A DNA stretch of 64,000 nucleotides from Prochlorococcus sp. AG-402-C09 (lineage in GTDB: Bacteria; Cyanobacteriota; Cyanobacteriia; PCC-6307; Cyanobiaceae): positions 1 through 64,000 of the forward strand of contig QCHN01000001.1 in NCBI GenBank assembly GCA_003279565.1, in the 5' to 3' direction. Position 1 is the stretch's first letter. Each line of letters starts with the position of its first letter. A program made the translations under genes and the position numbers. Under the pieces are notes generated by a model. That model searched no databases and was not told the DNA's origin. It saw nothing but the letters and a program-made list of their open reading frames with translations. Positions 1 through 27,020 of this stretch are shown in pieces.

Positions 1-654
1 AGTTTGAATTATACTTGCTGATCTAGCTTATCTAGACTGTATTGGTTAAAGAATGAATCAGAGTATAAATTCCTTTCACATTAAGAGGGGAATTATAAAC
101 TTTTAATGACCCAATTTACCTCAATCTTTCCTCTGCTGGTTTGATCTTTCTACCTTTACGAAAATCTCCGAAGACTCATCAGTTCTGTAATTAAAGTTAT
201 GCTCTTGGATATATTGCATGAATTATCTGTATTAGCTGCAACTGTTTGAAGATGAACGTCACACATAAATACAGGGTGAGGTATGTATCCTTGAAGTCAT
301 ATCAAGTGAGTGTTTTACATGAGTCAACAATGACTTTGTTGGTTTGACTATCATGGCCCTCTCTTCAGTCTGTGAGTCTAGTTTTAACTAGCAATTCACA
401 TAGATTATTTTGCTATATGCGTTAACTAGTTTGTTTGTCGAGTCTTGATTGCTAAAATATGATCCTCCATCTGTTTTATTTAGTAAGGACTCTGATAAGT
501 TCTAGGCAATTGGTAATGGGCGTGGACACTCGACGAGACCTAGCTGTCTTGAGCTTATTAGCTTTTATATCAGAGTATCAGTTGCAAGGTACGAGTCCTC
601 TCTAGATAGCTAAAAGTAGTGGCATCTGTGAGCAAATGATTAGTGAATATGAAT
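1..654. other. Gene-poor stretch, only tiny ORFs
   Basis: No convincing gene is seen. Two short open frames are worth recording: a 32-codon frame on the minus strand at 121-219 (begins MQYIQEHNF) and a 31-codon frame on the plus strand at 252-347 (begins MNVTHKYRV). Neither has a clear ribosome binding site, and frames this short are expected by chance in AT-rich DNA. They may be remnants of small orphan genes like those further right. Confidence 0.4.
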
Positions 655-1245
655 TTAAAAAGAGAAAAAATCTTCTGTTTTGCTTTCTTTGAACTGGAAA
701 AAATTATTAATTGTGGAAATTTTGGTAGCTGATAACATTGGATCAACATAGCTGATCTTTTTTATTTTATTTTGAGCTTTATCTAATGACTTTGATTGCA
801 GCATTGATCCAAAAGTTTTTGCTGATTGATTTTTGGTTTTTATATTGACTTTACCGGTCATTACTCCTTGATATGAATTTTGCATAGCTTGGATCCCTAA
901 AAGACTTGCTCCTCCGATAGCTATAATTGTCAGGCTACAAACCTCCAATACTTTTGAAGATGGTAAGAAATTTAGCTTTTTAATGTTTGGCTCTTCCACT
1001 TTTTCGTGATTTACGGTTGTTGACTCAAAAATTAATTGATCTTCTAGCTTCTCTTTGACTAATTCAAGATTTGAATTATCGTCTATTTTTTCAACAAATT
1101 GATTGGTTTGAGTATTGAGGACGTTGTGGAATACATAACCTAGTAATCCAAAGATAATTAATAGAGAGAGAATCAATATTGCATCTGTAGGAATTGAAAT
1201 TGTATTAACGTCTGTCAACTCAAGCTCAGTGATTGCAAGGGACAT
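655..1245 (-). CDS. Hypothetical two-pass membrane protein, 196 aa
   Basis: No family is recognised. Two hydrophobic segments are visible, about residues 20-43 and 99-122, separated by a charged, Glu/Lys-rich loop with helical character. The region after the second segment is basic and polar with repeated KTKNQ/KSLDK-type stretches, ending in a Phe-rich tail. It is therefore probably an inner or thylakoid membrane protein with a soluble C-terminal part. It stands alone with long non-coding flanks and belongs to the flexible left part of the window. Codon use looks ordinary for this genome. Confidence 0.6.
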   Translation of the reverse strand: MSLAITELELTDVNTISIPTDAILILSLLIIFGLLGYVFHNVLNTQTNQFVEKIDDNSNLELVKEKLEDQLIFESTTVNHEKVEEPNIKKLNFLPSSKVLEVCSLTIIAIGGASLLGIQAMQNSYQGVMTGKVNIKTKNQSAKTFGSMLQSKSLDKAQNKIKKISYVDPMLSATKISTINNFFQFKESKTEDFFSF

Positions 1246-1428
1246 TTGAAATCTATAACTCTATCTATTAAAACCTCTCTAAAAGATAGGGCTAGATTTC
1301 TTTACTTATCTATTTAATTTTCATACGTATTAATACCGATTATATTCCCTTGTTTTGGAATATTACAAAAAAAGCTATTACTATCTATTTTTTTAGCCAT
1401 TTACATTCTCTCTCAACTTGTAGAAGGT

Positions 1429-1575
1429 TTATTCACAGCAATAATCAATACCTTTGTAGTCATCTGGGGATGATTTCATCCAAGTAGGATTGTCATGATG
1501 ACAGAATGATCACCTTGGATATGAAAGCCAACCTTTTTGTTTTTTTCTTCTATGAAATTTGGAGGAAGACTCAAG
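1429..1575 (-). pseudogene. Remnant of a small Cys/His-rich protein with internal stop
   Basis: One reading frame gives GWLSYPR, then an in-frame TGA at 1510-1512, then about 26 more codons beginning SFCHHDNPTW and ending YKGIDYCCE before TAA at 1429-1431. The Cys/His/Trp-rich composition looks protein-like and continues on both sides of the stop, which suggests a decayed gene. No start codon is found upstream before the next stop. The alternative is that only the part after the TGA is meaningful, or that the frame is chance. Confidence 0.35.
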
Positions 1576-1586
1576 TTACTATCAAG

Positions 1587-1730
1587 TCATTTTATCAATA
1601 CTTTCCTATTAACGACTCTGCAAAAGGGATTTCTTGATTTTGCGACCTTGTCAGCATCCTCAAATTTATCTACATAAACTATTTCCTTGATGACCATCCC
1701 TCCAACGAAACAAGAAACTTCAACTTTCAT
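1587..1730 (-). CDS. Small hypothetical protein, 47 aa
   Basis: The frame starts at ATG 1730 and ends with TGA at 1587. Just upstream of the ATG (transcript sense) lies a strong GGGAGGAGG Shine-Dalgarno sequence, unusual in this AT-rich genome and good support for real translation. The product begins MKVEVSCFVGGMVIKEIVYV and has a charged middle (DKFEDADKVAKSRNP) and a basic C-terminus with one more Cys. The pattern of a short beta-like N-terminal half followed by an alpha-helical segment recalls small conserved picocyanobacterial proteins, but no family is assigned. Confidence 0.6.
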   Translation of the reverse strand: MKVEVSCFVGGMVIKEIVYVDKFEDADKVAKSRNPFCRVVNRKVLIK

Positions 1731-2042
1731 TGTTGGCCTCCTCCCAGTTGGGAATGAAGAGTTCATCTTTAATTGACATGTTTATGAAAACCTATTCACC
1801 TTACTCAAGCAATAGAGTATTAAATCATTCATCATGTTATATAGACTTTTTTTGATGTTCATATGTGATGCAAACATTTAGCAAACTTTCGTTCAATTGT
1901 GATCGCTTGTTATTGTCGATTTTTTCCCATACGTCTCTTAGAATTGCAACAATTTAAATTTAGTTTTCATTTTTGGTTTTTCTTAAAAGAATACTTAATT
2001 TGTAATTTGCTTTATAAGCTTTAGTTAGATAGGAGTTTGCAG

Positions 2043-2240
2043 AAAAAGATTGCTATCCTGACGAACGCAAAAGGCCGAGACATTGCAATCATTGATTACC
2101 AAAAGGCTATGAAAATCAAACAAAATGAAGCCTAGGCTTATGTAAATCTGAATCTTAAAAAAGTGTGGATTAATGATTTGGATGAAGCCTGCTCCGACTT
2201 AAGAAAAGCAACTTCTCTTGCTCTGAAACAATATTCTTAG
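2043..2240 (+). pseudogene. Decayed TPR-repeat protein fragment
   Basis: A single frame reads AIIDYQKAMKIKQNEA, a TAG stop, then AYVNLNLKKVWINDLDEACSDLRKATSLALKQYS and a final TAG. The first half matches the second helix of a tetratricopeptide repeat (DY-KA-I/M-I). The tail (DLDEACSDLRKATSL) matches the typical end of marine picocyanobacterial TPR proteins, whose usual form is D-ACSDW-KAASLGD. The in-frame stop, the lost repeat spacing and the lack of a clear start show that it is a broken copy. An intact TPR protein lies nearby at 3861-5534. Confidence 0.55.
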
Positions 2241-2324
2241 TGGATTATGAATTAACGAGATACGTAACTAAACTAATACTTCAGCAAAAAATCTTGATTC
2301 AGACTATTTATCCCACCGATTCAC

Positions 2325-3167
2325 TCACATAATTATATCTTTATCGTAGAACTCGCCTTTAGTGTATAAATCTACATAGTTATTTGTTCCTTTTGCACCT
2401 AAGGATTCAATTTCACCACCTTTTGATTGAGGCATCCATGCATCTTTATGTAATGCAAAAATATCTCCGCTTGGCAAAATATATGATCTATTCTTTTGCT
2501 TGTGTGATGGAGTCAATGCCGTAAAGTGACCCATAATATGACTCTTTTGAGCACCATAAAATGCTATAGATCTACCTAAAATAGCTGTTCCAGAAGGACA
2601 GCAAGGAGTTAAACCATAATTTTCGTTTTTACAATTCTCTATAACTAATTCAATAGCTTTCGCAAAAATTGGACTTTTTGGCTTCGTATAGAAAAGTGAA
2701 TTTTGTACTGGGTATGATATGGATCCTGGCATTAAAGGTCCTTGTCCTTGATCTATAAAGGCAACTAAATCAAAAGTTTCTCCAATAGAAATTTTTTTTT
2801 GAATCTTAATAGATATGTCTACATACCAACCACCACTTAAATAAGCTATACAGAATCTCCCAAGATCGGCTTTACTTGCATATGCTCTCAGCTTGAGGAA
2901 CGCATTGTGAGCATCTTTACCAAATTCAGTTTTTATTAATTCTTCGAGTATCTTTTTATCATATAAAGTATAAGAACACATATTGAAAGCTGTTTTAACA
3001 GTTCGAATGGCTTCTTGGATTAAGGGAGGTATGATTACTTTTTCTTCTTCGGTAATAAATATTTGAGAAACTTTATTAATCATTTTTATTTTAAATATAG
3101 TCATAGCAATATCAAAAAAAATAACCCTTATTCTTTCTTTACTTTTTGCATTGAGTGAAATGTTCAA
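2325..3167 (-). CDS. GT32-like glycosyltransferase (DXD sugar-binding region)
   Basis: Residues about 85-120 match the 'glycosyltransferase sugar-binding region containing DXD motif' family. They hold a conserved SKADLGRF helix (98-105) followed by GGWYVDIS (112-119), where canonical members have GG-Y-D-D. The second Asp of the DXD is Ser here, so metal/nucleotide-sugar binding may be altered. Length (280 aa) fits the family. It probably transfers a sugar onto a surface polysaccharide or a protein in the cytoplasm; donor and acceptor cannot be read from sequence. It lies in tandem, same strand, with DUF6165 and TPR/GT9 genes, suggesting a small glycosylation cluster. Confidence 0.65.
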   Translation of the reverse strand: MNISLNAKSKERIRVIFFDIAMTIFKIKMINKVSQIFITEEEKVIIPPLIQEAIRTVKTAFNMCSYTLYDKKILEELIKTEFGKDAHNAFLKLRAYASKADLGRFCIAYLSGGWYVDISIKIQKKISIGETFDLVAFIDQGQGPLMPGSISYPVQNSLFYTKPKSPIFAKAIELVIENCKNENYGLTPCCPSGTAILGRSIAFYGAQKSHIMGHFTALTPSHKQKNRSYILPSGDIFALHKDAWMPQSKGGEIESLGAKGTNNYVDLYTKGEFYDKDIIM

Positions 3168-3453
3168 TTGATCTACTCAAGGGTGACGATGATTTTAAAT
3201 CGAATTAATATAATTAAATATACCTTCTTTCTAAAAATAGTGTTTGAAAAATATTCGGTCCGGATATTAAAATGATTAAAATCATGTTAATCACTTGACT
3301 TTCACAATCTATAAGCTCTAGTCCTCTAATAATACTTTTTACTTTTAGTAAATTCTTACTTTATCCATAATTTGACAACTCTAGAGAAATTATTTCTAAC
3401 TATAAATTTATAATAGTTACTTTCTTTGATAAGAAAATTAAAATTTCTAGGTA

Positions 3454-3864
3454 TCAAATATGTTTATTATATCCGTAATATTTCTCTTCAATTAATTCAG
3501 AATGATATGTATAATTTATTTCTTTTTTAATTGATGCTCTTTTATCATTTTCTTTGTAAACTGCTCTTGCCAGTTTTATGAATTCATAATCAAATTCTTT
3601 CTTATTTTCTTTTATTCTGATTTCATCTTCTATCTTCCAAAGAATATTATTTACCGTTTTGAGTTCATTGGTTAAATGGCTATCAATATTTAAATTTGAA
3701 TCCAAAAGAATTTTGTTTAGATATTCTAGTTCTTTATTGATATTTTTTAACTTTTTATTTTCTTTAATATGTTCTTTTTTTATTTCTAGAATTGTAATTT
3801 TATCTATAAGTTCACCTAGAGATACTGGTATAATAAGGTTTACAAAACTTTTTTCATTTTTCAT
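3454..3864 (-). CDS. DUF6165 family protein, 136 aa
   Basis: The N-terminal signature IIPVSLGELIDKITILEIK (residues about 11-29), followed by a Lys/Glu-rich coiled-coil region (30-95), is characteristic of DUF6165, whose function is unknown. Members are often next to TPR or GT9-like glycosyltransferase genes. Here the start overlaps the end of the TPR/GT9 gene by 4 bases (ATGA), so the two are probably translated in a coupled way. An accessory role to the glycosyltransferase is inferred from this context only. The protein is soluble, with no signal peptide or membrane segment. Confidence 0.7.
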   Translation of the reverse strand: MKNEKSFVNLIIPVSLGELIDKITILEIKKEHIKENKKLKNINKELEYLNKILLDSNLNIDSHLTNELKTVNNILWKIEDEIRIKENKKEFDYEFIKLARAVYKENDKRASIKKEINYTYHSELIEEKYYGYNKHI

Positions 3865-5534
3865 TTTATTAATTTATAACTATTTTTTAGTTCCAACAAT
3901 AGCCTATCCATAACTTCATTCCAGTTATTTGTTTCCTTTTGTCGGAATAATCTCATGCTTGGATACCAAAAAGTGGTTTTATTTTGTATGCCCCATCTCC
4001 ATTCGGGTACATCTTTTAATAGAAGCCACACTTTTGCACCTATTGCTCCAGCCAGATGAGCTAAAGAAGTATCACATGTAATTATAAGATCACAATTCGC
4101 AATGATTGCTGCATTTTCAGTGAAATCCCAAATATCGTTGATTGTTTTTTGACAATTTACAAAATTATTTATAAATGAACAGTTATTCAATTGTTCTGAT
4201 CCTGCTCCTTTTTGAAGAGATAAAAAGTTGAACTTTTTGCTTTTTGCAATATTAGAAAAACTTTCCAAAGGAAAGGAGCGGCCTCTTAGCTCATTTTTTT
4301 CTGTATTTGGGTTACCTTGCCAATTAATACCAATAATTGGTTTTTTCTCAGGGGCTAGAATATCATTCCATTTTCTGATTAATAGTTTTGGTACTGATAT
4401 ATAAGGATTATTAACGATAGGGTTCTCTGTGCTTATACCAATATATTTAGGTAAAGATAACAACTCAATCCATTTCCCTTCTGAAATATTATTTACCTCT
4501 TTTGGTGTTAGTGGATTTTTATCAATATTGGATGCTTTTATTAGACTATGCAATGTTTCCTCTGCACAAAAAGAAACATCAATATTTTGATTTCTTAAAA
4601 AAGGTACATATCTCATGAATTGAATAGTATCTCCTAACCCTTGCTCGCCAATAATTAATAGCTTCTCTTTTGGCTGAAGTATTTCTCCATTCCATTTTGG
4701 TAAGTCAGGTTTTTTAGAATGTAATTGAGTAGGATTTATTTTTTTCCATCTTGACTCGTAATTATTCCATCCATTTTTATAATCTCCTATTAACAACTCG
4801 ACTCTAGATAAATTGAAACGAGCTTCTGAGTACATTGGTTTAAGCATAAGTGCTTTTTTAAGTACTTCAATAGCGATTTTTAGATCTCCTATTTCATATA
4901 ATGCTACTCCCAAATTATTAAGTGCTTCTGGAAAATTTGGCTTCAACTTTAAAGCCTTTTTATAGGATTCTATTGCTATATGGATATCTCCTTTTTGGTA
5001 AATTGCTGCGCCAAGATTATTAAGTGCCTCTGCATAATTTGGGTTGATTTTGAGGGCTTTTTCATATGAAATAATTGCAGAATCTCTATTTCCCTTCGCT
5101 TCATAGGTATTGCCCAGACCGACGAGAGCTTGGGAATAATTTGGCTTTAAATTTAAAGCTTTTCGATATACTTCAATGGCCTTATTATAATCTCCTTGAA
5201 TATTTAAAGCATTACCTAAGTTATTTAGACTTCTATAATCTTTCGGTTGTAGCTCAAGTGCTTTTTGAAGAAGTTGAATCTTCTCAATATTATTTCCTTT
5301 TAAGCCAGAAATGATACCAAGATGATTATAAACGCTATGACTTTTGGTTCCTTTAGAAATAAGCTCTCTATAAATCTTTTCTGCTTCTTCGAACTTTCCT
5401 TGATTAATTAATTCTAAGGCTTGTTTCTCTTTGATGATATCTCTTTGATTACTTTTTGACGCGGTTCTATGAGAATTTTCTATCAACCTTGCAAAACCAG
5501 TTTTGCTTTTTTTATGCTTCTTCAAATTATTCAC
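3861..5534 (-). CDS. TPR protein with GT9-like glycosyltransferase domain
   Basis: 557 aa. Residues 35-250 form about six tetratricopeptide repeats with clear consensus (ALNNLG-A-Y--GD---AI--YKKAL-L-P). The C-terminal half resembles ADP-heptose:LPS heptosyltransferase-type (GT9) domains: GEQGLGDTIQFMRYV at about 296-310 and CDTSLAHLAGAIG near residue 500, the usual donor-binding end. TPR-GT fusions of this kind act in polysaccharide or protein glycosylation; here the substrate is unknown. It is first in a minus-strand cluster with DUF6165 (4-base overlap) and a GT32-like gene. The first 30 residues are basic and disordered. Confidence 0.75.
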   Translation of the reverse strand: MNNLKKHKKSKTGFARLIENSHRTASKSNQRDIIKEKQALELINQGKFEEAEKIYRELISKGTKSHSVYNHLGIISGLKGNNIEKIQLLQKALELQPKDYRSLNNLGNALNIQGDYNKAIEVYRKALNLKPNYSQALVGLGNTYEAKGNRDSAIISYEKALKINPNYAEALNNLGAAIYQKGDIHIAIESYKKALKLKPNFPEALNNLGVALYEIGDLKIAIEVLKKALMLKPMYSEARFNLSRVELLIGDYKNGWNNYESRWKKINPTQLHSKKPDLPKWNGEILQPKEKLLIIGEQGLGDTIQFMRYVPFLRNQNIDVSFCAEETLHSLIKASNIDKNPLTPKEVNNISEGKWIELLSLPKYIGISTENPIVNNPYISVPKLLIRKWNDILAPEKKPIIGINWQGNPNTEKNELRGRSFPLESFSNIAKSKKFNFLSLQKGAGSEQLNNCSFINNFVNCQKTINDIWDFTENAAIIANCDLIITCDTSLAHLAGAIGAKVWLLLKDVPEWRWGIQNKTTFWYPSMRLFRQKETNNWNEVMDRLLLELKNSYKLIK

Positions 5535-5591
5535 ACATTGGACTTATTTTTTTATTTTATTGCATTTTTTGTGTTTTTCTCCAACTTTTAT

Positions 5592-5843
5592 TTAATCTAG
5601 CTCTGGAAACAGCATATTGATATAAGCCATTATTATCACAACTAATGGAGGCATATTGGTTTTGTCTTCTTTTGTGAGTCGCTTTATCTCTGATAAAAAA
5701 CTCTTGGCATCCTGCTCGCTAATATTGTGTTCTAAGTTCTTTTCTACTTCGTTAACGAGGGATTGGATTTGATTAGCAGAATCCATTTTGTTAATGTTTT
5801 GTTCTATGCCAATAAAACGAATTAGATATTTGACTACAAGCAT
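5592..5843 (-). CDS. Small hypothetical protein, 63-83 aa
   Basis: No family recognised. The longest frame starts at 5843, but an internal ATG at 5786 (MDSANQIQSLVNEVEK) looks a more natural beginning, giving about 64 aa. The body is an amphipathic helical region (Glu/Lys-rich) followed by a hydrophobic tail PPLVVIIMAYINMLFPELD that could anchor to or touch a membrane. It is separated from the TPR/GT9 gene by 57 bases on the same strand, so co-transcription is possible. Neither start has a clear Shine-Dalgarno sequence. Confidence 0.5.
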   Translation of the reverse strand: MLVVKYLIRFIGIEQNINKMDSANQIQSLVNEVEKNLEHNISEQDAKSFLSEIKRLTKEDKTNMPPLVVIIMAYINMLFPELD

Positions 5844-6052
5844 AGATTAAGAAAACTTATCATCTCTTTATGTTAGGGCTAAGGCTTTGTAGCTTTTTGA
5901 TAGATAGTCATTAGCTAAATGTCATAAAAGCTATATTATTATCCAACTTACTTATTTTAGTAAAGATGGTTTTATCTTCATTTATATCGTATGATCAGCG
6001 ACGTATATGTGAAATAAGTGGTGTTTTATGAGCCATATGAGTTAATAATTTC

Positions 6053-6262
6053 CTAGTGATGATTTATAAAATCATCCAGACCCTTGCTTATCATTAAAGA
6101 AATCTGCAGTTTGGGTTCAACGTAGACTCTAAAAGCTCAAATGAGTAATGCGACTTCTTCATCTGCAATAGCATGATGCAGTGGTTGGAGGATAGAAAAT
6201 CTTAGATGATATGGGAGAGAGAAGAGCAATCTGTTATGGAAAGACTTGTGAAGGTTTTCATA
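6053..6262 (-). pseudogene. Possible decayed reading frame
   Basis: Within an otherwise empty stretch (5844-6329), one minus-strand frame stays open for about 41 codons and reads like protein (LPYHLRFSILQPLHHAIADE), then meets TGA at 6137-6139 and continues 27 codons to TAG at 6053-6055. No ATG precedes it. This could be a broken orphan gene. It could also be chance, since frames of this length are not rare in AT-rich DNA. The rest of the gap shows nothing. Confidence 0.25.
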
Positions 6263-6329
6263 TCAACTTGTGAATGAATTGATTTTTAAAATATAGATTA
6301 AAGTTGTCTAAATTATTCAGTGAATACAA

Positions 6330-6506
6330 GTGAGTCATCTCCAAGATATTGAAGAATTAATAGCTGATTCTATGACAGGTTTAATGATTCGAGCTGAAAG
6401 ACTTAATGCATTTGATCAATTAGCTATTAGTGAAGAGTTTAGAGAGTGGCTGGATGAGGGCGTAAGTATTGAAGATGTCTTGAAATTAGGAAGCCTCAAA
6501 AAATAA
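6330..6506 (+). CDS. Small acidic hypothetical protein, 58 aa
   Basis: The frame runs from GTG at 6330 to TAA at 6506; a TGA three codons upstream excludes a longer form. The product (begins VSHLQDIEELIADSMTGLMI) is acidic and predicted mostly helical, with segments FDQLAISEEFREWLDEG and VSIEDVLKLGSLKK. The ordered amphipathic pattern and lack of low-complexity sequence support a real gene despite its size. It contains no Cys and no membrane segment. Family and function are not recognised. Confidence 0.55.
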   Translation: MSHLQDIEELIADSMTGLMIRAERLNAFDQLAISEEFREWLDEGVSIEDVLKLGSLKK

Positions 6507-6527
6507 TCAGAAATTATGCTGGTATAT

Positions 6528-6743
6528 TCATGCCGCAATTTTGTCAATATCTAGTAGTTTAGCGATATCATGATCTACAGCATCTCCTTCTTCTTTACGC
6601 TTTACGAATTTATCAAAGTCAATGACATTATAATTTTTACGCTTGATATCAGCACTTCTATTTAAGTAATCCAGCGAGACTAGAAATACAGGAATAACGC
6701 AGAATGGAATGATTAAGACGTAGAACTCAAAAGGCATTTGCAT
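6528..6743 (-). CDS. Small single-pass membrane protein, 71 aa
   Basis: An N-terminal hydrophobic helix (about residues 5-26, FYVLIIPFCVIPVFLVSLDYL) is followed by a charged cytoplasmic-type tail with KRKNYNVIDFDKFVKRKEEGD and a DHDIAKLLDIDKIAA end. It is an orphan of the kind common in Prochlorococcus flexible regions. It converges on the 58-aa gene at 6330, ending 21 bases from it. No family is known to me. Confidence 0.55.
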   Translation of the reverse strand: MQMPFEFYVLIIPFCVIPVFLVSLDYLNRSADIKRKNYNVIDFDKFVKRKEEGDAVDHDIAKLLDIDKIAA

Positions 6744-6927
6744 TGATCAGTATAGATTAAGCTTTACTTAAGTAGTCAATGCTCGCAAGAGGGATAGTGG
6801 TAATTTGCTGCTTTCCTTATATGTTATTTAGATGTAAGAAATTTAATTATTTATGTATATTCTATTTGCGAGTGAGTTTTCTAAAACATTATATCCATAA
6901 TGAGTTCTTAGTTGACTTCTGACTCTT

Positions 6928-7074
6928 TTATGCAGCTTGATCGTTTAATGGACCATATCGATATCTCATTATGTCTATTACTTGTTCCTTTGTGCTCCAA
7001 GTTTTAATTCGGTCCTTAATGCTAAGCAGTTGTGATTCAGTTAGCTCAAGACGTGCTTTTTCAAGATTTGTCAT
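6928..7074 (-). CDS. Small hypothetical protein, 48 aa
   Basis: Starts at ATG 7074 and ends with TAA at 6928. The product begins MTNLEKARLELTESQLLSIK and ends in RYRYGPLNDQAA. It is charged, probably a two-helix soluble peptide. The regular heptad-like spacing of Leu in the first 25 residues suggests a short coiled coil. No family is recognised. A plus-strand frame overlaps it but has poor composition and was judged a shadow. Confidence 0.5.
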   Translation of the reverse strand: MTNLEKARLELTESQLLSIKDRIKTWSTKEQVIDIMRYRYGPLNDQAA

Positions 7075-7325
7075 TTGGTTAAATACTTGTAGCGGTTATG
7101 ATGATGATTTGCAGGCAAAGCAAACAACAAAGAGTAACCATGAAGTCTCACATATATGGTTGGATGAATCGATTCTCACATGTCTATAAAGCTTGTCAAT
7201 TACCATTATGAAATAATCAATAACGACGCTTATGGATCACGCATTTCATAGATGATTAATCCAACTTTATTGCTTCCATCTTATTAATAAGCATTATTTC
7301 AACTTTTTTCTTTAAATAACCTACA

Positions 7326-7661
7326 TTATGCAACTTTTGGATCTTCCTTTTCCTGTAATACTTTCTTGACCTGAGAATACTTCCTGCCAATTTTGTATTG
7401 CCTATGGAATAGATTTAACTGGTCACTGTCATCATTCGTAGCTTTGATTTCAATCTCTGCAACTGGTTTTGTCATTTGACTCCATACAAAAAGCATCGCA
7501 AGTGCAGAAACAAGTAATGGAAGATACGCTTTAATTAAACTAACGACTACTAGAGTAGTTATAAAACACAGAGAAAAGAGAGTCCATTTATGAATTCTAC
7601 TATCTGTTAGTTTTTTCTTGTTTGTTTTTGAAGAAGGAATGATTGGCAGATCAGGAGTCAT
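7326..7661 (-). CDS. Hypothetical membrane protein, 111 aa
   Basis: A polar N-terminus with several Lys (about 1-25) precedes one long or two tightly spaced hydrophobic segments (about 27-62, LFSLCFITTLVVVSLIKAYL and LLVSALAMLFVW). A basic, soluble C-terminal tail follows (QYKIGRKYSQVKKVLQEKEDP). It is likely anchored in the cytoplasmic or thylakoid membrane. No domain is recognised, and neighbours are other orphans, so nothing more can be said of its job. Confidence 0.55.
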   Translation of the reverse strand: MTPDLPIIPSSKTNKKKLTDSRIHKWTLFSLCFITTLVVVSLIKAYLPLLVSALAMLFVWSQMTKPVAEIEIKATNDDSDQLNLFHRQYKIGRKYSQVKKVLQEKEDPKVA

Positions 7662-8004
7662 TCGTTATTGAGTTGTAGGTGTATTGGATTTGAGGATGTA
7701 GTAATTGTTTTAAGCTGGTGTAATAATATATCTTCTTTAAATCAGCTTTACTTGATAGATATTCTGCTAATCGATTGAGATAGCCTCAAATCTTTGGACC
7801 ATAGTGATATCGATATCAGAGACGCGTCGTTTGATAATGACACAGAGATTATATTTTAACTAGATAATTTTTAACAAATTCAATCAAGCTTGTAAATGTT
7901 TCTGGATGAATCGCTCATAGACTTTAGTATTTTGATTTTTTTTCTATATGCATCATTAATGCTACTTTTTTCAATTCTATTCTAAAAAATTTGATAATAC
8001 TCAT
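7662..8004. other. Non-coding gap, nothing recognised
   Basis: No open frame with protein-like composition, RNA gene or clear terminator was found on either strand between the 111-aa membrane protein and the short frame beginning near 8005. Confidence 0.4.
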
Positions 8005-8160
8005 AAGAAAAATATTGATTGGACTAGGGGTCGATTCTCCGGGCAACTCAAGAAAATCTTGGTAAGGCAAGGTCAAATAGTTGAAAAGATTTCCATAAAA
8101 CCTAAAGGGAATATAGTTTCTGTTAAAAGATCTGAGTTAGGCTTATTACTCAGAGAATAG
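8005..8160 (+). pseudogene. Basic protein fragment lacking a normal start codon
   Basis: A frame ending with TAG at 8158-8160 reads KKNIDWTRGRFSGQLKKILV, then RQGQIVEKISIKPKGNIVSV and KRSELGLLLRE: a strongly basic, well-ordered small protein. No ATG, GTG or TTG lies in frame between it and the upstream TAA. Either the start has been lost (a recent pseudogene) or translation begins at a rare codon such as ATT. The protein-like quality makes pure chance less likely. Function unknown. Confidence 0.4.
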
Positions 8161-8177
8161 TTATGAAGATGATCCAA

Positions 8178-8726
8178 TTATTTGATTTCGCATTCTAGTT
8201 CTGCTAGCGCTTCATTAGGAAGACCAAGAAAGGTATCTAGGATTTTATTACCAGTTATGGGGATGTTGGCAATACCTACCAGTTTCGTTTTGCCATTATT
8301 TTGAAGAACTTCACCCTCTCCTTCATGTGATTTACCTTTTACCTTTCCTGTATTGAGCAAGGTGTTAACGATTAAATAAGGAAACCTAAGCACAGATCCA
8401 ATGCTAAAAAGAAATTTGGATTCAAATTTCAATAACACTTCTCCAGATTGCTTATTAATAGTTCCTTCTAGTTGATCCATAGACATTTCAATCTTTAAAC
8501 CTGGAGGTAATGGAAGAGATAAAAATTTTGTTGTTTTTGAAGTAAGAGGAGGTATTGAAAATGTTTTAGATGAAAAGTTAACGTGTAGAAGATTATTTGT
8601 CTGGCTTGAAAGTAATGTCGCTTTACCTCCTCCCCCAAAAGCATTGTAGGCAAATGGTGGATATGAACCAATTGTTAACCGACATCCATCCAAACTCCTC
8701 ATCTCCATAAAGTAATCAAAACTCAT
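8178..8726 (-). CDS. Conserved-looking hypothetical protein, 182 aa
   Basis: The N-terminus contains a glycine-rich turn (YNAFGGGGKATLL, about 27-39) followed by alternating beta-type strands rich in Leu/Pro (FSIPPLTSKTTKFLSLPLPPG). A middle section reads EVLLKFESKFLFSIG, and the C-terminal part has GEGEVLQNNGKTKLVGIANI and an acidic end. It has no signal peptide and no clear transmembrane helix. The beta-rich pattern suggests a beta-sandwich or lipocalin-like fold, which is inference only. It does not match a family I can name. Confidence 0.6.
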   Translation of the reverse strand: MSFDYFMEMRSLDGCRLTIGSYPPFAYNAFGGGGKATLLSSQTNNLLHVNFSSKTFSIPPLTSKTTKFLSLPLPPGLKIEMSMDQLEGTINKQSGEVLLKFESKFLFSIGSVLRFPYLIVNTLLNTGKVKGKSHEGEGEVLQNNGKTKLVGIANIPITGNKILDTFLGLPNEALAELECEIK

Positions 8727-9014
8727 TTTTCATATAGTAATAGAAATTAATTTGTTCAACAAAGCAAACAAAAGCTAATTTGAGCCTTAATATCACCGAA
8801 ATATTAATGAGAGTAATGAGAAAATGATTTCTAATTGCTAAAGTGCTTTACACAGATTCGAGTAAAGTCTTTTTTTGTTAATTTTTTAGAAAATAAATTC
8901 AAGTATAGAACGAGTCATTAACTATTTTTTAATTAAATCATTATGTTCATTTGGCCATTCCACTTATTGTTATGCACTCCTTAAATTATAATGATATATA
9001 AAATCGAGTAGCTG

Positions 9015-9323
9015 ATGTCTGAAAACTTAACTCCAGATTGGTCCTCAGAATTTGAACATTATAAGAAATTATCCAGAGAAGTAGTTACCAATGAAGATAT
9101 AATTAACTTTTTTAATCAGCATCAGAAAGCTTTTTATCTTGATAGCTTTTCTTCAACTTGGGCAAATATGATGGAGGCATATGAAGTTAAAGAGAGTTTA
9201 AGTTCAGATCAATTAAACAAACTTGAAGAAATGCAATGGCAAGAGATGCCTGAATCATTAAAATTATTTGCTTATGATTTTTGTATTAAGAATGGATTTT
9301 GTTTTACCGGAACATCTCGTTAA
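9015..9323 (+). CDS. Acidic hypothetical protein, 102 aa
   Basis: ATG at 9015. The product is acidic and helix-rich, with many aromatic residues (NLTPDWSSEFEHYKKLSREV near the start; WQEMPESLKLFAYDFCIKNG near the end). Two Cys lie close to the C-terminus (FCIKNGFCFTGTSR). It is cytoplasmic by appearance, with no signal or membrane segment. No family recognised. It stands alone with about 290 bases of AT-rich DNA upstream. Confidence 0.6.
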   Translation: MSENLTPDWSSEFEHYKKLSREVVTNEDIINFFNQHQKAFYLDSFSSTWANMMEAYEVKESLSSDQLNKLEEMQWQEMPESLKLFAYDFCIKNGFCFTGTSR

Positions 9324-22914: not shown

Positions 22915-23232
22915 ATGCAACTCTACTTGGTTGATTGCCAGTTCCCTGATATTGATAATCAAATTGCTGCGTACAAGCAGTTTGTAGAATTTTGGGAAAA
23001 TGGAGAGATGTCTAAGCAAGATAAATTTGATGGGTTTGACATGCTTTTTCGTGTGCATGCTCCTGGTGAGGGTCGTGTTGTAATTCTCTGCAATGCAAAA
23101 AGTGATAAGGAACTTTTTCTACATTTTGCTCCATGGAGAGCTCAGTTCGGTATAGATATGGAAATTACTCCAGTCATAAGCTGCCAAAACGTTGTTGACT
23201 ATCACAAGGACTTGTTTGAAAAAATGTCTTAA
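22915..23232 (+). CDS. DUF3303 family protein, 105 aa
   Basis: Matches DUF3303 by layout: beta strand MQLYLVDCQF, helix with AAYKQFVEFWENGE, G-F-RVHAPGEGRVVILCNAKSD (conserved core), LFLHFAPWRAQFGIDMEITPV and ending VDYHKDLF. A ferredoxin-like alpha/beta barrel dimer fold is expected. The family's function is unknown. It is single, soluble and well conserved in marine cyanobacteria as far as I recall. Confidence 0.8.
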   Translation: MQLYLVDCQFPDIDNQIAAYKQFVEFWENGEMSKQDKFDGFDMLFRVHAPGEGRVVILCNAKSDKELFLHFAPWRAQFGIDMEITPVISCQNVVDYHKDLFEKMS

Positions 23233-23310
23233 ATGTATTCAATAAATCTTTTTTTAACTTATTCCTTGATTTTAATTTCTACAATGAAGATCAATTTTAA
23301 AAGATATTAT

Positions 23311-23487
23311 TTATCTGCTTGAGAGAGCGTTTCCACTTGTCCATATATTTTTGAATTCGGTTTTATCCTTTAGTAATTGAATAGGAAGGCTAAGTAAAAT
23401 TCCTAATGCGATTAAGGCAAATGAGTCAGTTGTGGCTCTAGCAATGCCCCATTCTGATGAAGCTAAGGCAAGAATTGATAAATGCAT
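23311..23487 (-). CDS. Small membrane protein, 58 aa
   Basis: ATG at 23487, TAA at 23311. The product begins MHLSILALASSEWGIARATT, with a membrane helix (SFALIALGILLSLPIQLL) and a charged tail (KDKTEFKNIWTSGNALSSR). It is short and single-pass, of the type seen in thylakoid subunits, but not identifiable as one. It is one of several such proteins in this window. Confidence 0.6.
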   Translation of the reverse strand: MHLSILALASSEWGIARATTDSFALIALGILLSLPIQLLKDKTEFKNIWTSGNALSSR

Positions 23488-23939
23488 GAAATTACCTAAT
23501 TTCTAAAAAAATTTTATCAGACTATTCATTGTTAATTAAAATACTTATTAAAAATTATTGTATATAAGAAATAGATAAGTAACTTATAGTTTTGAATTTA
23601 TTAAAACTCTTATGAAATATAAGTTTTCCCGCTTTTTATAGACTCTCAAAAGTAATTTTAATATCTTTTTTCCTTTTTATTTAATGCAATTATTTCTTTT
23701 GATGTTGAGGGGAATTGAAGTTTCTTAGAAATTGACTTTGAGACCATTACGGTGCAATTGAATTAAGGAGCTCTCGTAGTGTTTATGGATTACTTAAAAA
23801 ATAGGAATCAATAAGTTTAAACATAGTAATGACTTTTTCCATCAATCTTCTTGAGCGCTCTTGTATTAATCCTGAAATTCCGAATTTTTTTCAGGCGATA
23901 TAATTTGATACCTCACTTTTTAAATTAATTCTTCAAATA
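23488..23939. other. Non-coding gap, nothing recognised
   Basis: AT-rich DNA between the 58-aa membrane protein and the broken cupin gene. No open frame, RNA gene or strong hairpin was found; it presumably holds the two divergent promoters. Confidence 0.4.
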
Positions 23940-24380
23940 ATGCTTAAAAAGATCTTTAGCTTTATATCCTTCATGCTTTTCTCATTTGTTAGTTTTGCGC
24001 CGATAGCAATTGCAGTTGAAGATAAACCTCCTGTAGATGTGCAAGAGCTTTTCTCAAGTAAAAAGCCAATTTATGGAGAATCTTTTACTTACCCTGCAGG
24101 TAAAGGAGAAATGCGTCTATATAAAGTTGATGTTCAACCAAGTGGTGTGGTCCCCCTTCATTTTCATGAGGCACCATTAACTAGCTATATTTAAGCAGGT
24201 CAATTAACACTGAAGACTAAGAAAGGAAAGAGCACAACTTTTCATGAGGGTGATTCTTTTGTATTGGCAGCTGATACGCCTCCGCACACTATGTCTAATA
24301 ATGGACAGGTTCCAGCAATTATGTGGGTCACTGTTGCAGCAGCTGAAGGAGTCCCTACGCTCACCAATGTTGAAGGATAA
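23940..24380 (+). pseudogene. Secreted cupin protein broken by a single nonsense codon
   Basis: One frame of 147 codons from ATG 23940 to TAA 24380 is interrupted only by TAA at 24192-24194. Before it: a signal peptide (MLKKIFSFISFMLFSFVSFA) and the first half of a cupin domain (SGVVPLHFHEAP, conserved HxH-type metal ligands). After it: AGQLTLKTKKGK, FHEGDSFVLAADTPPHTMSNNG (second cupin motif) and a short end. The gene is otherwise intact, with no frameshift, so inactivation is recent, or it is a sequencing error. Intact, it would be a small periplasmic cupin. Confidence 0.75.
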
Positions 24381-24564
24381 TTTAGTTTCGGTTGAGAGCA
24401 GATTTCTATATGTACTAGATGAGCTGAATTGGGCTAGTTACTTTTGATGTTTCGAGAAGAGTGACAATTGCTTTCAAAGAGAAACATTGGATTTTACTCT
24501 TGATTTTTTTTTCTTAACTCTTAGACCCATGGGAGCTCAATGAAAAAAGAGACTTACCAAGCTT

Positions 24565-24587
24565 CATGGATCAATTGGGTAATAAGG
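24565..24587 (+). repeat. Left copy of 23-base direct repeat of the tmRNA 3' end
   Basis: 23 bases identical to 25568-25590, starting CATGGATCAATTGGG and ending AATAAGG, at a distance of 1003 bases. The right copy is the 3' end of the ssrA gene, so this copy looks like the far attachment site (or a leftover) of an element that once entered at ssrA. Confidence 0.65.
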
Positions 24588-24710
24588 ATTGGGGTTTAGC
24601 GACGTATTAATTGATTCTTTCTTGGCCAAAAAATATCCAATTATTAATAAAAGGTTATTCATTGCACTAGAGCAACTATATAAGCTAGATCTGAAATTTT
24701 TAAGGTAAGT

Positions 24711-25361
24711 ATGAAAAGGCTGTCTGCAGGTCTTGCTACAACTTTGCTCTTGACTGCGACTGGTGCAGTTCAAGCTGGAACTTATGAGGCAATGTGTGGA
24801 GAAACAAAATGCACTGTAAATATCAATGGGAGGCAAATTAATACTCCTTTGGGCAGTATCCCTGCCAAACGCGTTACGCAGTGGGGGTTAACAGGTAAAT
24901 CTAAAACCAATATCAGTACTGGTGTTTGGACCACTGTTCTTTTTGGTCCTATTGGTCTCCTTGGTTTTACAGCTAAACACAGCGACTACAATTTTCTAGT
25001 CAATGGATATAACAGGCAAGGAGATAAAACATCTCTTCAATTCAAATTCAAAAACAATAAGCCAGTTGAGAGCTTGATGCAAGAAATGCCTATGGTAACT
25101 GGGATCGGCATGGGTGAGATACGTACTGCTTTGGAGATAAAGAAGAATGAAGGGCTGATAAGAAAATGTTGGTGGGGTCCTTGGAATTGTTCTGATCCTT
25201 TAGAAGGCCAAACCATAGACCCAGAAAATCTTTTTGAGACAACTGATTTAGATCAATCTTTTCCTAAAACAGCAATAGGGATAGGTGCTTTGTTTGCATT
25301 TCTTCTGGGCTTCTTATTCTTGAAGAAAAATAAAAAAGGAGAACCTAAGGAAAGCAGTTAG
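24711..25361 (+). CDS. Secreted/anchored hypothetical protein, 216 aa
   Basis: A Sec signal peptide (MKRLSAGLATTLLLTATGAV, cleavage after QAG or nearby), a mature domain with Cys in MCGETKCTVNINGRQ, and a second Cys pair (RKCWWGPWNCSD). It ends in a C-terminal transmembrane helix (TAIGIGALFAFLLGFLFLKK) and a basic stop, so the chain is anchored with its body outside the cytoplasm. The family is unknown to me, though the layout resembles anchored periplasmic beta-proteins. It is the only gene inside the 1-kb segment between the two 23-base repeats and may be cargo of a mobile element. Confidence 0.65.
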   Translation: MKRLSAGLATTLLLTATGAVQAGTYEAMCGETKCTVNINGRQINTPLGSIPAKRVTQWGLTGKSKTNISTGVWTTVLFGPIGLLGFTAKHSDYNFLVNGYNRQGDKTSLQFKFKNNKPVESLMQEMPMVTGIGMGEIRTALEIKKNEGLIRKCWWGPWNCSDPLEGQTIDPENLFETTDLDQSFPKTAIGIGALFAFLLGFLFLKKNKKGEPKESS

Positions 25362-25400
25362 TGCATATCTAGTTAATAAGAGATGTTTATCGAAACCAGA

Positions 25401-25427
25401 GGGCTGACTTAGTTCAGTCCTTTTTTA
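25401..25427 (+). terminator. Rho-independent terminator
   Basis: GGGCTGA at 25401 pairs with TCAGTCC ending 25420 (seven pairs, one G-U), followed by TTTTTT. It ends the 216-aa gene transcript. Confidence 0.7.
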
Positions 25428-25546
25428 TATTTTTGAGACGATTGAGAATTTCTTTGTAGGAAAATTATTCGATTTTTCGTCCACTTTTTCGTCCATCTCT
25501 ATTTTTACGGTTTTTTGAGATTATAAGACTCAAGTCATGCCAATTT

Positions 25547-25568
25547 AAAAGGACGCCTTCCAGCGTCC
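25547..25568 (-). terminator. Terminator of the tmRNA gene
   Basis: On the minus strand GGACGC-loop-GCGTCC is followed by TTTT (plus-strand stems 25551-25556 and 25563-25568). It stands directly at the 3' end of ssrA. Confidence 0.75.
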
Positions 25569-25590
25569 ATGGATCAATTGGGTAATAAGG
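25568..25590 (-). repeat. Right copy of 23-base direct repeat (in tmRNA 3' end)
   Basis: The copy inside ssrA, identical over 23 bases to 24565-24587 in the same orientation. Position at the 3' end of a tmRNA gene is the usual entry point for integrases. Confidence 0.65.
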
Positions 25591-25803
25591 CTGACCTCAC
25601 CCCATCTCCTAGAAGATCAAGCAGCAACAGGGGCTGTTTGACGGGAGAAACTAACGATGTTGTTAGCAGTTATGGTTTTGCTCTGACCGAGCAGGCTTCA
25701 GTCACTCGCCTGATACCCCGTCGAAGCCATTGCAGCCCCATTCATGGAGCTGAGCGGAATCGAACCGCTGTCCGAGATACTGGTCTGAATCACCTAGTCC
25801 ATT
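25569..25803 (-). ncRNA. ssrA: Two-piece (permuted) tmRNA
   Basis: Minus-strand reading gives the acceptor piece first, with the T-arm AGCGGTTCGATTCCGCT and CAGCTCCA end (to 25745). After a 5-base spacer comes the coding piece starting GGGGCTGCAATGGCTTCG (25739 downward); GGGGCTG pairs with CAGCTCC as the acceptor stem with one G-U. The tag frame (25667-25617) encodes ANNIVSFSRQTAPVAA then TGA; this tag type is known from marine picocyanobacteria, which have two-piece tmRNA. It rescues stalled ribosomes and tags proteins for degradation. The outer ends are approximate. A plus-strand frame here is a shadow. Confidence 0.93.
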
Positions 25804-25895
25804 AAGAAATAGACAAATATATTCTGACAGATGTTTTGGAATTAATCGATTAGGGTTAAAGAACTTTTTTATCCTTTTTTAATAAATAAAAAGTA

Positions 25896-27020
25896 ATGAA
25901 ACTTGTTGCATCTATCTCACAAGGTCTTGAGCAAGAGGGTGCAAAAGAGCTGATAGAACTTGGAGCTAAATCAGTTCAAGCTTCAAGGAGACATATATTA
26001 TTTGAAGCTGATCAGGCTTGTTTATACAGAATACATTTAAGGGCTCGCTTGTCTTTTAGGTTTTTAAGAGAGATTTCTAGATTTTCTTGCAATGGTCCTC
26101 ATGAACTTTATAGCGGTGTTCAAAGGTCAATTGAATGGGAAAATTGGCTTCAGCCTAAACAAAGTTTTCGAGTAGATGTAACTGGTTTTGGAGAAGGTTT
26201 GTCACATACTCATTTCACTGCTTTACAGGTGAAAAATGCAATTATTGATTTACAACGAGTTCGATGGGGTTTGCGTTCAAGCATTGATTTGAGCAATCCA
26301 GATCTATGTTTTCATTTGCATTTGGCAAATTCTCAAGCCTTTTTGAGCGTTGATGGTTGTAACTCGAGTCTGCATAAAAGAGGATATAGACCAGCTGTTG
26401 GAGTAGCTCCGATAAAGGAGACGTTAGCTGCAGGATTAATGCGAATGACTAAGTGGGATGGAACACTTCATTTGATTGATCCATTGTGCGGTTCTGGAAC
26501 ATTTTTGATTGAAGCAGTAAGCATGTTGCTTGGAATTTCCTCTGGTATAGATAAACAATTTCTATTTAATAATTGGCCGGATTTTGATAGCTCTATTTGG
26601 AATAAAGAATTAAAAATGGCACAGAAGATGAGACCTCTAACTAAGAAGTTACCTAAAATAATTGGGTGCGAAGTTGATGAAATGATTGCAAACTCCGCTA
26701 ATGAAAACGTTAGAAAAGCTGGCTTGGAAAATTATATAGAAATAATCAACTGTCCTTTTCAAGAATTGCAATTGCCGCCAGGCTTAGGGTTTTTAGTTTG
26801 TAATCCTCCTTATGGGAAAAGAATAGGAGATGAGAATGAATTACCTAATCTTTATAAACAATTAGGTGAATATTGCAAAAAACAAGCCTCTGGATGGGAT
26901 CTTTGGTTACTTAATGGGAACCCAAAACTAAGTAAACATTTAGGAATGAAAGCAAGTCGACGTTTTCAAGTAAATAATGGTTCAATCGATTGCCGATGGT
27001 TAAATTATAAAATTAAATAA
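25896..27020 (+). CDS. RlmL/RlmK-type 23S rRNA guanine N2-methyltransferase
   Basis: 374 aa. The N-terminal THUMP-like part (MKLVASISQGLEQEGAKELI, about 1-160) is followed by a Rossmann methyltransferase with LIDPLCGSGTFLIEAV (SAM motif I) and the catalytic NPPYGKRIG (motif IV). This is the RlmL-like/YpsC layout, expected to make m2G in 23S rRNA (or in a related RNA). It starts just right of the tmRNA gene on the opposite strand and ends 2 bases from the next minus-strand gene. Exact target position is inferred from family. Confidence 0.85.
   Translation: MKLVASISQGLEQEGAKELIELGAKSVQASRRHILFEADQACLYRIHLRARLSFRFLREISRFSCNGPHELYSGVQRSIEWENWLQPKQSFRVDVTGFGEGLSHTHFTALQVKNAIIDLQRVRWGLRSSIDLSNPDLCFHLHLANSQAFLSVDGCNSSLHKRGYRPAVGVAPIKETLAAGLMRMTKWDGTLHLIDPLCGSGTFLIEAVSMLLGISSGIDKQFLFNNWPDFDSSIWNKELKMAQKMRPLTKKLPKIIGCEVDEMIANSANENVRKAGLENYIEIINCPFQELQLPPGLGFLVCNPPYGKRIGDENELPNLYKQLGEYCKKQASGWDLWLLNGNPKLSKHLGMKASRRFQVNNGSIDCRWLNYKIK

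Follow-up and report, generated by a model that had tools for sequence, protein, structure and literature searches.

The 3′ end of the permuted tmRNA gene (ssrA) is an integration hotspot in this Prochlorococcus genus, and the stretch of DNA analysed here (the window, 64 kb) carries two tandem cassettes at that site: a membrane-protein gene, followed by a broken cupin gene. We think it probable that the segment next to the tmRNA gene is the first of two small non-autonomous cassettes inserted site-specifically at a core within that gene, with an integrase of an ssrA-specific clade, acting in trans, as the most likely enzyme.

Two tandem cassettes behind the tmRNA gene

The window belongs to a 1.63-Mb draft genome (88.7% complete). 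Among 12 named loci with relatives, 11 are from Prochlorococcus sp. with AG-numbers, which we take to be single cells of a low-light clade, and one is from an uncultured Prochlorococcus. A direct search of the 64-kb window found CATGGATCAATTGGGTAATAAGG in two exact copies, at 24565–24587 and 25568–25590 (1003 bp from start to start), and no further copy with up to 3 mismatches. No such 23-bp pair arose in 100 dinucleotide shuffles (0/100). The pair is absent from a general repeat listing with a minimum of 14, and the evidence for it is the direct search together with the shuffles. A preliminary description of this DNA, which reported a perfect 23-base direct repeat with one copy in the ssrA 3′ end and the other 1003 bases away, was therefore accurate on this point.

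The tmRNA gene has the tag ANNIVSFSRQTAPVAA (ARAGORN), and the Rfam model cyano_tmRNA (RF01851) spans 25552–25830 at 295 bits. As the gene is permuted and on the minus strand, its downstream side points to lower coordinates. The proximal repeat copy lies within the 3′ end of the coding-RNA piece, directly before the terminator hairpin, and it is this end, not the CCA end, that serves as the integration target. The features of the region, read away from the anchor gene, are:

25896–27020, plus strand: methyltransferase gene, our anchor and marker of host relatedness
25526–25834, minus strand: permuted two-piece tmRNA gene (ssrA), with its 3′ end as integration target (ARAGORN, Rfam)
25571–25587, minus strand: conserved 17-bp core, TATTACCCAATTGATCC, delimited by the conservation boundary in the att copies of the genus
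25568–25590, minus strand: proximal copy of the 23-bp repeat (exact search)
25551–25568, minus strand: tmRNA terminator hairpin, carried with each att copy (terminator scan; fold z −2.9)
25474–25496, minus strand: two direct repeats of TGGACGAAAAA at 12-bp spacing, which may be integrase arm sites
25422–25532, minus strand: left-end module of cassette 1 (model R2, E 5.2e-16)
25398–25423, plus strand: terminator-like hairpin that follows the cassette-1 gene and faces the tmRNA terminator (terminator scan)
24711–25361, plus strand: cargo of cassette 1, a 216-aa ORF
24588–24710, no strand: right end of cassette 1, from the distal att copy to the gene start
24565–24587, minus strand: second att copy, the distal end of cassette 1 and proximal end of cassette 2 (exact search)
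24442–24519, minus strand: decayed left-end module of cassette 2 (R2, E 1.6e-7)
23940–24380, plus strand: cargo of cassette 2, a cupin frame
23787–23803 (about), minus strand: third, degenerate att core, the far end of the array
23200–23739, no strand: native chromosomal flank, which lies directly behind the tmRNA in empty-site relatives
22915–23232, plus strand: DUF3303 gene, a conserved neighbour beyond the array (PF11746, 3e-19)

Cassette 1 is 1003 bp long. Its 216-aa protein has, by eye, a signal-peptide-like start and a C-terminal hydrophobic stretch, in keeping with the single anchored or secreted gene previously placed between the repeats; it matched no Pfam or PHROG family and nothing in phage records. 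Homologues occur in 17 of the 41 genus genomes, the window's own included. No integrase is encoded among the ORFs between the window's repeats, as had also been stated, and no repeat pair was found in the right end (24588–24710). The terminator scan returned three terminator-like sites in 2.4 kb, against 1.8 in shuffles. Two homologues of the 216-aa protein lie away from ssrA, near other tyrosine-recombinase homologues (G034:C1:204388–205415 and G033:C1:542406–542660).

Cassette 2 spans about 781 bp behind the second att copy, which att model R1 matches at 24519–24590 (E 4.9e-10). Its cupin frame contains an in-frame TAA at 24192–24194 (by eye) and is otherwise full-length; the stop could mark a true pseudogene or a sequencing error. 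The first piece (84 aa) has no Pfam match, and an intact relative in L064 matches PF07883 at 6.5e-12. Homologues of the cassette at the DNA level are present in L044, L046, L055, L060, L064, L066 and L143, and cupin homologues follow the last recognised att copy in L063, L067, L141 and L065 (over 306 bp in L065). The cupin had been placed just outside the repeat-bounded segment; it is instead the cargo of a second unit inside the array, with a third att copy beyond it. That copy retains 11 of 17 core bases (hand count) and has nhmmer profile E-values of 0.04 and 0.06, weak alone; we accept it as the far end because native flank starts just beyond. Despite this weak far end, the left module of cassette 2 is recognised by R2. 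The native flank is 76% identical to positions 75–636 of locus L056 over 566 columns, and tblastn detected the DUF3303 gene that lies behind it in 29 of 31 genus loci.

The window segment had been offered as a relic or a minimal cargo unit. The latter better describes cassette 1, and the former fits cassette 2, since its cupin is broken and its sites are decayed. An integration scar had likewise been proposed; that proposal is supported, and we add to it three things missing from the preliminary description: the array itself, its repeat pairs and a third att copy.

Arrays and empty sites across the genus

We sampled up to about 15 kb downstream of ssrA in 25 genus genomes with the anchor and six with an att match. 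Model R1, built from 38 att copies, matched 32 of the 41 genus genomes; in 31, the matches lie next to a called tmRNA. Thirty of the 32 genus loci were counted: L059 was left out as its contig ends 23 bp after the tmRNA, and L142 as no tmRNA was called. L142 (G009, contig C50) has two att copies about 670 bp apart and only a tmRNA 3′ end, the body being absent; this could be an array truncated at the contig end, or a copy located elsewhere than ssrA. Att copies with E > 0.5 or beyond 6 kb were dropped (L050 excepted), L156 was omitted from the att-copy analysis for want of a called tmRNA, and the ORF start filter lost one plus-strand ORF in L067. ARAGORN called the tmRNA in all 38 Prochlorococcus loci L001–L038, some of which share a genome, and in none of L039–L042, which are from other families.

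In 21 of the 30 loci, 35 cassettes are bounded by two att copies. They measure 499–9005 bp (median 855), with 32 of the 35 between 0.5 and 1.2 kb. Exactly one ORF of at least 100 aa is present in 25 cassettes, none in eight and more than one in two; such ORFs point toward the tmRNA in 34 of 37 cases, or 25 of 27 without the 9-kb element of L050. Nine loci lack a second att copy. Four of these (L045, L053, L056 and L057) are strictly empty, with the terminator followed directly by native flank; in L056 the tmRNA end (window +1..56) runs directly into the flank found at window +1859..2398. Two more (L052 and L062) are ambiguous, and L065, L141 and L145 have an element-type left end and no recognised far end.

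The scar hypothesis had come with a suggestion to look among relatives for empty sites, longer elements and integrases with a like repeat, and all three were found: the four strictly empty loci among 30; other cassettes and one 9-kb element within the genus; and, in other genera, ssrA elements that have an integrase and a similar core. Nor do all relatives carry the same segment, given the four empty loci. An integration scar at ssrA is thus supported.

In a 250-genome sample of the order, R1 matched 219 genomes, mostly once, and these single matches we take to be the tmRNA itself. Outside the genus, 11 of 232 genomes had two or more matches by our own count. Genome G245 has five R1 matches, one of them weak, on contigs C1, C4, C5, C6 and C7, unlike the ssrA arrays. 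In L152 (G293), a second tmRNA-like match lies 3.2 kb downstream; we rejected it as an att site because it resembles a partly duplicated tmRNA gene.

Anatomy of the attachment sites

Each att site brings the 17-bp core, the tmRNA terminator and, when fresh, repeat pairs of about 11 bp at 12-bp spacing. Proximal and distal copies both carry TATTACCCAATTGATCC. Across 27 distal copies the sequence is variable upstream and conserved from TATTACCC on, while the 30 proximal copies hardly vary upstream; this distal variation is as expected if crossover occurs within the core. A direct repeat of the 3′ end of the target gene thus lies at the far border of the insert, and the insert restores the target gene.

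The terminator was examined over seven pairs in 36 distinct att copies, where 94% of cells are paired, compared with 78% in shuffles, and where 49 cells show double changes, compared with 22 in shuffles and at most 6 with the partner slid; the structure was derived from the same alignment in which covariation was assessed. Neither the number of pairs with a double change (4 versus 4.1) nor the number of pair types (11 versus 10.7) exceeded shuffles.

Of 56 copies, 14 have a repeat pair at lag 12 in the first zone and 10 have one in the second. Shuffles give about 0.3%, and the nine other spacings tried gave only 0–1 copies. Searching the left-module model R2 against 41 genomes placed every match with E ≤ 1e-4 at an att site; four weak matches (E 0.002–0.008) lie elsewhere, in G000, G005, G011 and G017. 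Three repeat-pair patterns gave 5, 6 and 4 matches (15), all at ssrA, and their reversed controls gave 0, 0 and 3. The repeat types in cassettes include GGGGGCAAAA, TGCGGGAAAA, TGGGCGAAAA and TGGACGAAAA. Cassettes carry up to four repeats on the left, and some left modules retain a single unit. In the 14 cassettes with left pairs and a following att copy, no right-end pair was present (0/14). The left-only repeats may represent a compact attP.

Integrase-bearing elements at ssrA

Locus L050 holds a 9-kb ssrA element with a 401-aa integrase near its far att copy. In other genera, ssrA elements have an orthologue at the corresponding position (L147, L150, L151, L154 and L155), and L153 has one in pieces; the integrase-bearing elements measure 8–13 kb. 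Five of the six intact ones have element-specific repeat pairs at both ends: the left pair, near +103/+115, recurs on the right 80–126 bp before the far att copy, with right-pair spacings of 12 (L050, L147, L155), 11 (L154) and 10 (L150). L151 has no exact repeat pair, and a left pair only by eye; L149, without an integrase, has no right pair. The attP core of lambda-type systems is flanked by integrase arm sites in like manner.

To relate this enzyme to its site, 250 genomes were searched for the integrase, which gave 16 places in 16 genomes at ≤2.9e-148, then, after a score gap, matches from 1.3e-101 to the cut-off of 1e-70. We examined the 5′ flanks of all ten of the 16 integrases that lay outside the model, and of the next ten by E-value. 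The ssrA core (0–2 mismatches, with a hairpin by eye) lies beside eight of the ten held-out integrases and none of the next ten; no core was found near the other two. Five of those eight also have a right-end repeat pair (a raw count with no shuffle baseline).

R240, R353, R359 and Y385 are invariant in all six integrases and the GH histidine in five of six; we take these to be the catalytic residues. An AlphaFold model (mean pLDDT 80.9, pTM 0.52) includes an N-terminal three-strand part. In Foldseek it matched XerA at 1.4e-5 and lambda Int over 401 columns at 8.7e-5, with low global TM-scores (0.26–0.44 for ranks 1–17). On this predicted structure, the ssrA-clade integrase is a tyrosine recombinase with a lambda-type fold and an arm-binding domain. 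At the sequence level, Pfam gave nothing for the L050 integrase and weak matches for single members among the six, and the best match in a PDB sequence search was only 0.11.

The clade is represented in one of the 41 genus genomes, many of which are incomplete drafts, and on one of the 35 cassettes. The window's genome, which is 88.7% complete, yielded no member (best match 3.9e-5) and so, as far as it is sequenced, has no resident helper. The 17-bp core had no match in viral_contigs, the integrase alignment gave 31 pattern matches there and no relative, and the L050 integrase matched nothing in phage records. A second L050 ORF matching a Pfam integrase (191 aa) was weighed as a candidate for the ssrA enzyme and rejected, as it has no relative at the other loci examined. 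Besides its divergent tyrosine integrase, the L050 element (1–9073) encodes a DUF3987 helicase-like protein, a small protein that weakly matches an HTH and a second, Pfam-type integrase fragment; it looks like a phage satellite.

Cassette order, histories and a proposed mechanism

Compared by sequence, cassettes are permuted in order between genomes, and their history disagrees with that of their hosts. In L046 the cupin cassette comes before cassette b, and in L060 the two stand in the opposite order. The cupin cassette and a second one (cupin2) are likewise swapped: cupin is ahead in L064, cupin2 in L143, a locus with one weak inner boundary (E 0.41). The cassette shared by L047 and L049 is 98.1% identical, compared with 90.3, 86.5 and 89.5% for the three flanking genes, and that shared by L044 and L064 is 94.5% identical, compared with 84.4, 82.9 and 87.0%. 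The opposite case is seen between the window and L044 (cassette 82.3%; flanking genes 89.2, 88.1 and 92.7%). Over all pairs, identity of the cupin cassette correlates with host identity (Spearman 0.45, p 0.0006), and that of cassette b does not do so significantly (0.28, p 0.15). L047.1 and L049.2 have bodies that are 98.4% identical with a different terminator and repeat type, and L046.1 and L064.1 have near-identical bodies with a different repeat zone, as if the arm-site module had been exchanged. The same body with different left modules across genomes calls for a second recombination process.

The units of the window have att sites at both ends and no integrase gene of their own, as in a trans- or cis-mobilised element. 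In the mechanism we propose, each cassette would be inserted by site-specific recombination at the 17-bp core in the coding-RNA piece. The insert would bring its own gene 3′ end and terminator, so that the tmRNA remains whole, and the old end would be displaced outward as the direct repeat; new units would enter next to the tmRNA. The enzyme would most likely be an ssrA-specific lambda-type tyrosine integrase from the 8–13-kb elements, working in trans. This enzyme would join a cassette circle to the tmRNA core, binding the core itself and, via its N-terminal domain, the short repeats of the left-end module, which would serve as arm sites. As cassettes have no right-end repeats, it is uncertain whether the known integrases can use them. 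A further-reaching reading is an integron-like cassette system at the tmRNA, with mostly one-gene units, all arm sites on the left, integrases from other elements, and helpers switched by module exchange while the cargo is kept; this we put forward tentatively, with more doubt than belief.

Other explanations were weighed against the trans-acting integrase. The arrays might be dead remnants of integrase-bearing elements that entered ssrA repeatedly and shrank by deletion to one gene, with nothing moving now. The lack of a resident helper agrees with this, as do the decayed att copies and broken cupin of the window, the modules reduced to one repeat unit and the fall in median −log10 E of att copies from 21.4 to 16.8 to 7.5 over slots 1–3 (n = 30, 21 and 10), although slots 4 and 5, from two loci, break the fall (17.5 and 11.4). 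We nevertheless regard it as unlikely: the same cassettes sit in different slots and orders across genomes, their bodies are 92–98% identical where the three flanking genes of the hosts are at about 83–90%, and a uniform size with a mostly single-gene build is unlike random shrinkage. To the same degree we doubt that the pattern arose by homologous recombination between ssrA flanks or modules after DNA uptake, with the repeats as old scars and the integrase no longer involved. The bodies of L047.1 and L049.2, alike up to a terminator and repeat zone that differs, speak for it and indicate that exchange within the module occurs. However, the joints of distal copies lie exactly at the core, the swap of cupin–b for b–cupin is hard to achieve via flank exchange, and the flanking genes do not share the cassettes' high identity.

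Replication origins typically have paired direct repeats too, a precedent for reading the 12-bp-spaced repeats as operators or replication iterons instead of arm sites. This is improbable given their position: in the window, the repeats follow the cargo gene and are enclosed by two terminator-like hairpins that face each other; most cargo ORFs of at least 100 aa face the tmRNA, so the module lies behind them; and integrase-bearing elements have the repeats at both ends, at a similar distance from the core, with a sequence that differs between elements and a spacing that is kept. Chance, or a local duplication of the tmRNA end, deserves almost no credence as the source of the repeat pair. L152 resembles such a partial duplication, but the shuffles produced no pair, relatives hold different inserts, and the empty sites refute this origin.

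Relation to known systems

Integron cassettes form arrays of mostly single-gene units, mostly in a shared orientation, with the enzyme supplied elsewhere. The cassettes described here are alike in outline, but their site is the tmRNA 3′ end with arm-like repeats. Closer in host are the tycheposons of Prochlorococcus, reportedly the subject of Hackl et al. 2023. Those elements are given as 4–200 kb at seven tRNA genes in the portion of the source consulted (PMC10872708). They share with the cassettes tRNA-type sites, a tyrosine recombinase and the form of cargo islands in picocyanobacteria, whereas the units here are about 1 kb, at the tmRNA and without a recombinase; this tycheposon hallmark is absent from the window units, and L050 has a divergent tyrosine integrase. 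Cluster158946, set beside our clade by description only, is a divergent tyrosine integrase of Prochlorococcus and Synechococcus islands and is placed, in the available passages, upstream of tRNA-Phe or tRNA-Cys, not at the tmRNA (PMC10187409). The additive island of Methylopumilus targets tRNA-Lys, and the sections seen of that account mention neither one-gene cassettes nor arm-like repeats (PMC10872708).

Tandem ssrA islands without integrases are already known from Dehalococcoides (PMC3146451). According to the excerpted text, islands with and without integrases lie in tandem downstream of ssrA, bordered by a direct repeat of 20 bp from its 3′ end. An integration module is missing from 15 of them, which might be cis-mobilisable, and strains differ in how many islands they have. 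The integrase there is a serine recombinase (DsiB), and the vcr integration modules measure 9–11 kb, in contrast to the lambda-type tyrosine candidate, the 32 of 35 units of 0.5–1.2 kb and the paired repeats at fresh left ends found here. The literature we searched, which covered few subscription papers, held no account of one-gene cassette arrays at picocyanobacterial tmRNA genes.

To our knowledge, streamlined ocean cyanobacteria hold few recognisable mobile elements, yet their small membrane and secreted proteins vary. An array of mostly one-gene cassettes anchored at the tmRNA offers a concrete route for single-gene exchange, which would be a compact form of gene swapping for a very small genome. 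Att sites with a repeat code that differs between units make the pairing of cassette and helper integrase testable, and the set of att sites and integrases supplied here can be used directly. If it is true, arm-site switching between near-identical cassettes would be a new way for integrase parasites to follow a changing helper.

Cargo of the cassettes

Pfam domains among 18 cargo proteins include cupins, PDZ, CsgG, sulfotransferase, PspC and TM2; ten of the 18 had no Pfam match at E 0.01, and one more had a match below its cut-off only. Cassette b, mostly about 630–700 bp, occurs in several slots (L047, L049, L060, L046, L043, L055, L058 and L044). It contains a 40-aa DUF4278-like frame that points away from the tmRNA and scores 22.4 bits, under the cut-off of 25.3. 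Rfam reported two tmRNA fragments in cassette b, as well as a snoRNA that we took as a chance match. Several cargo proteins, judged by eye, open with a signal-like stretch.
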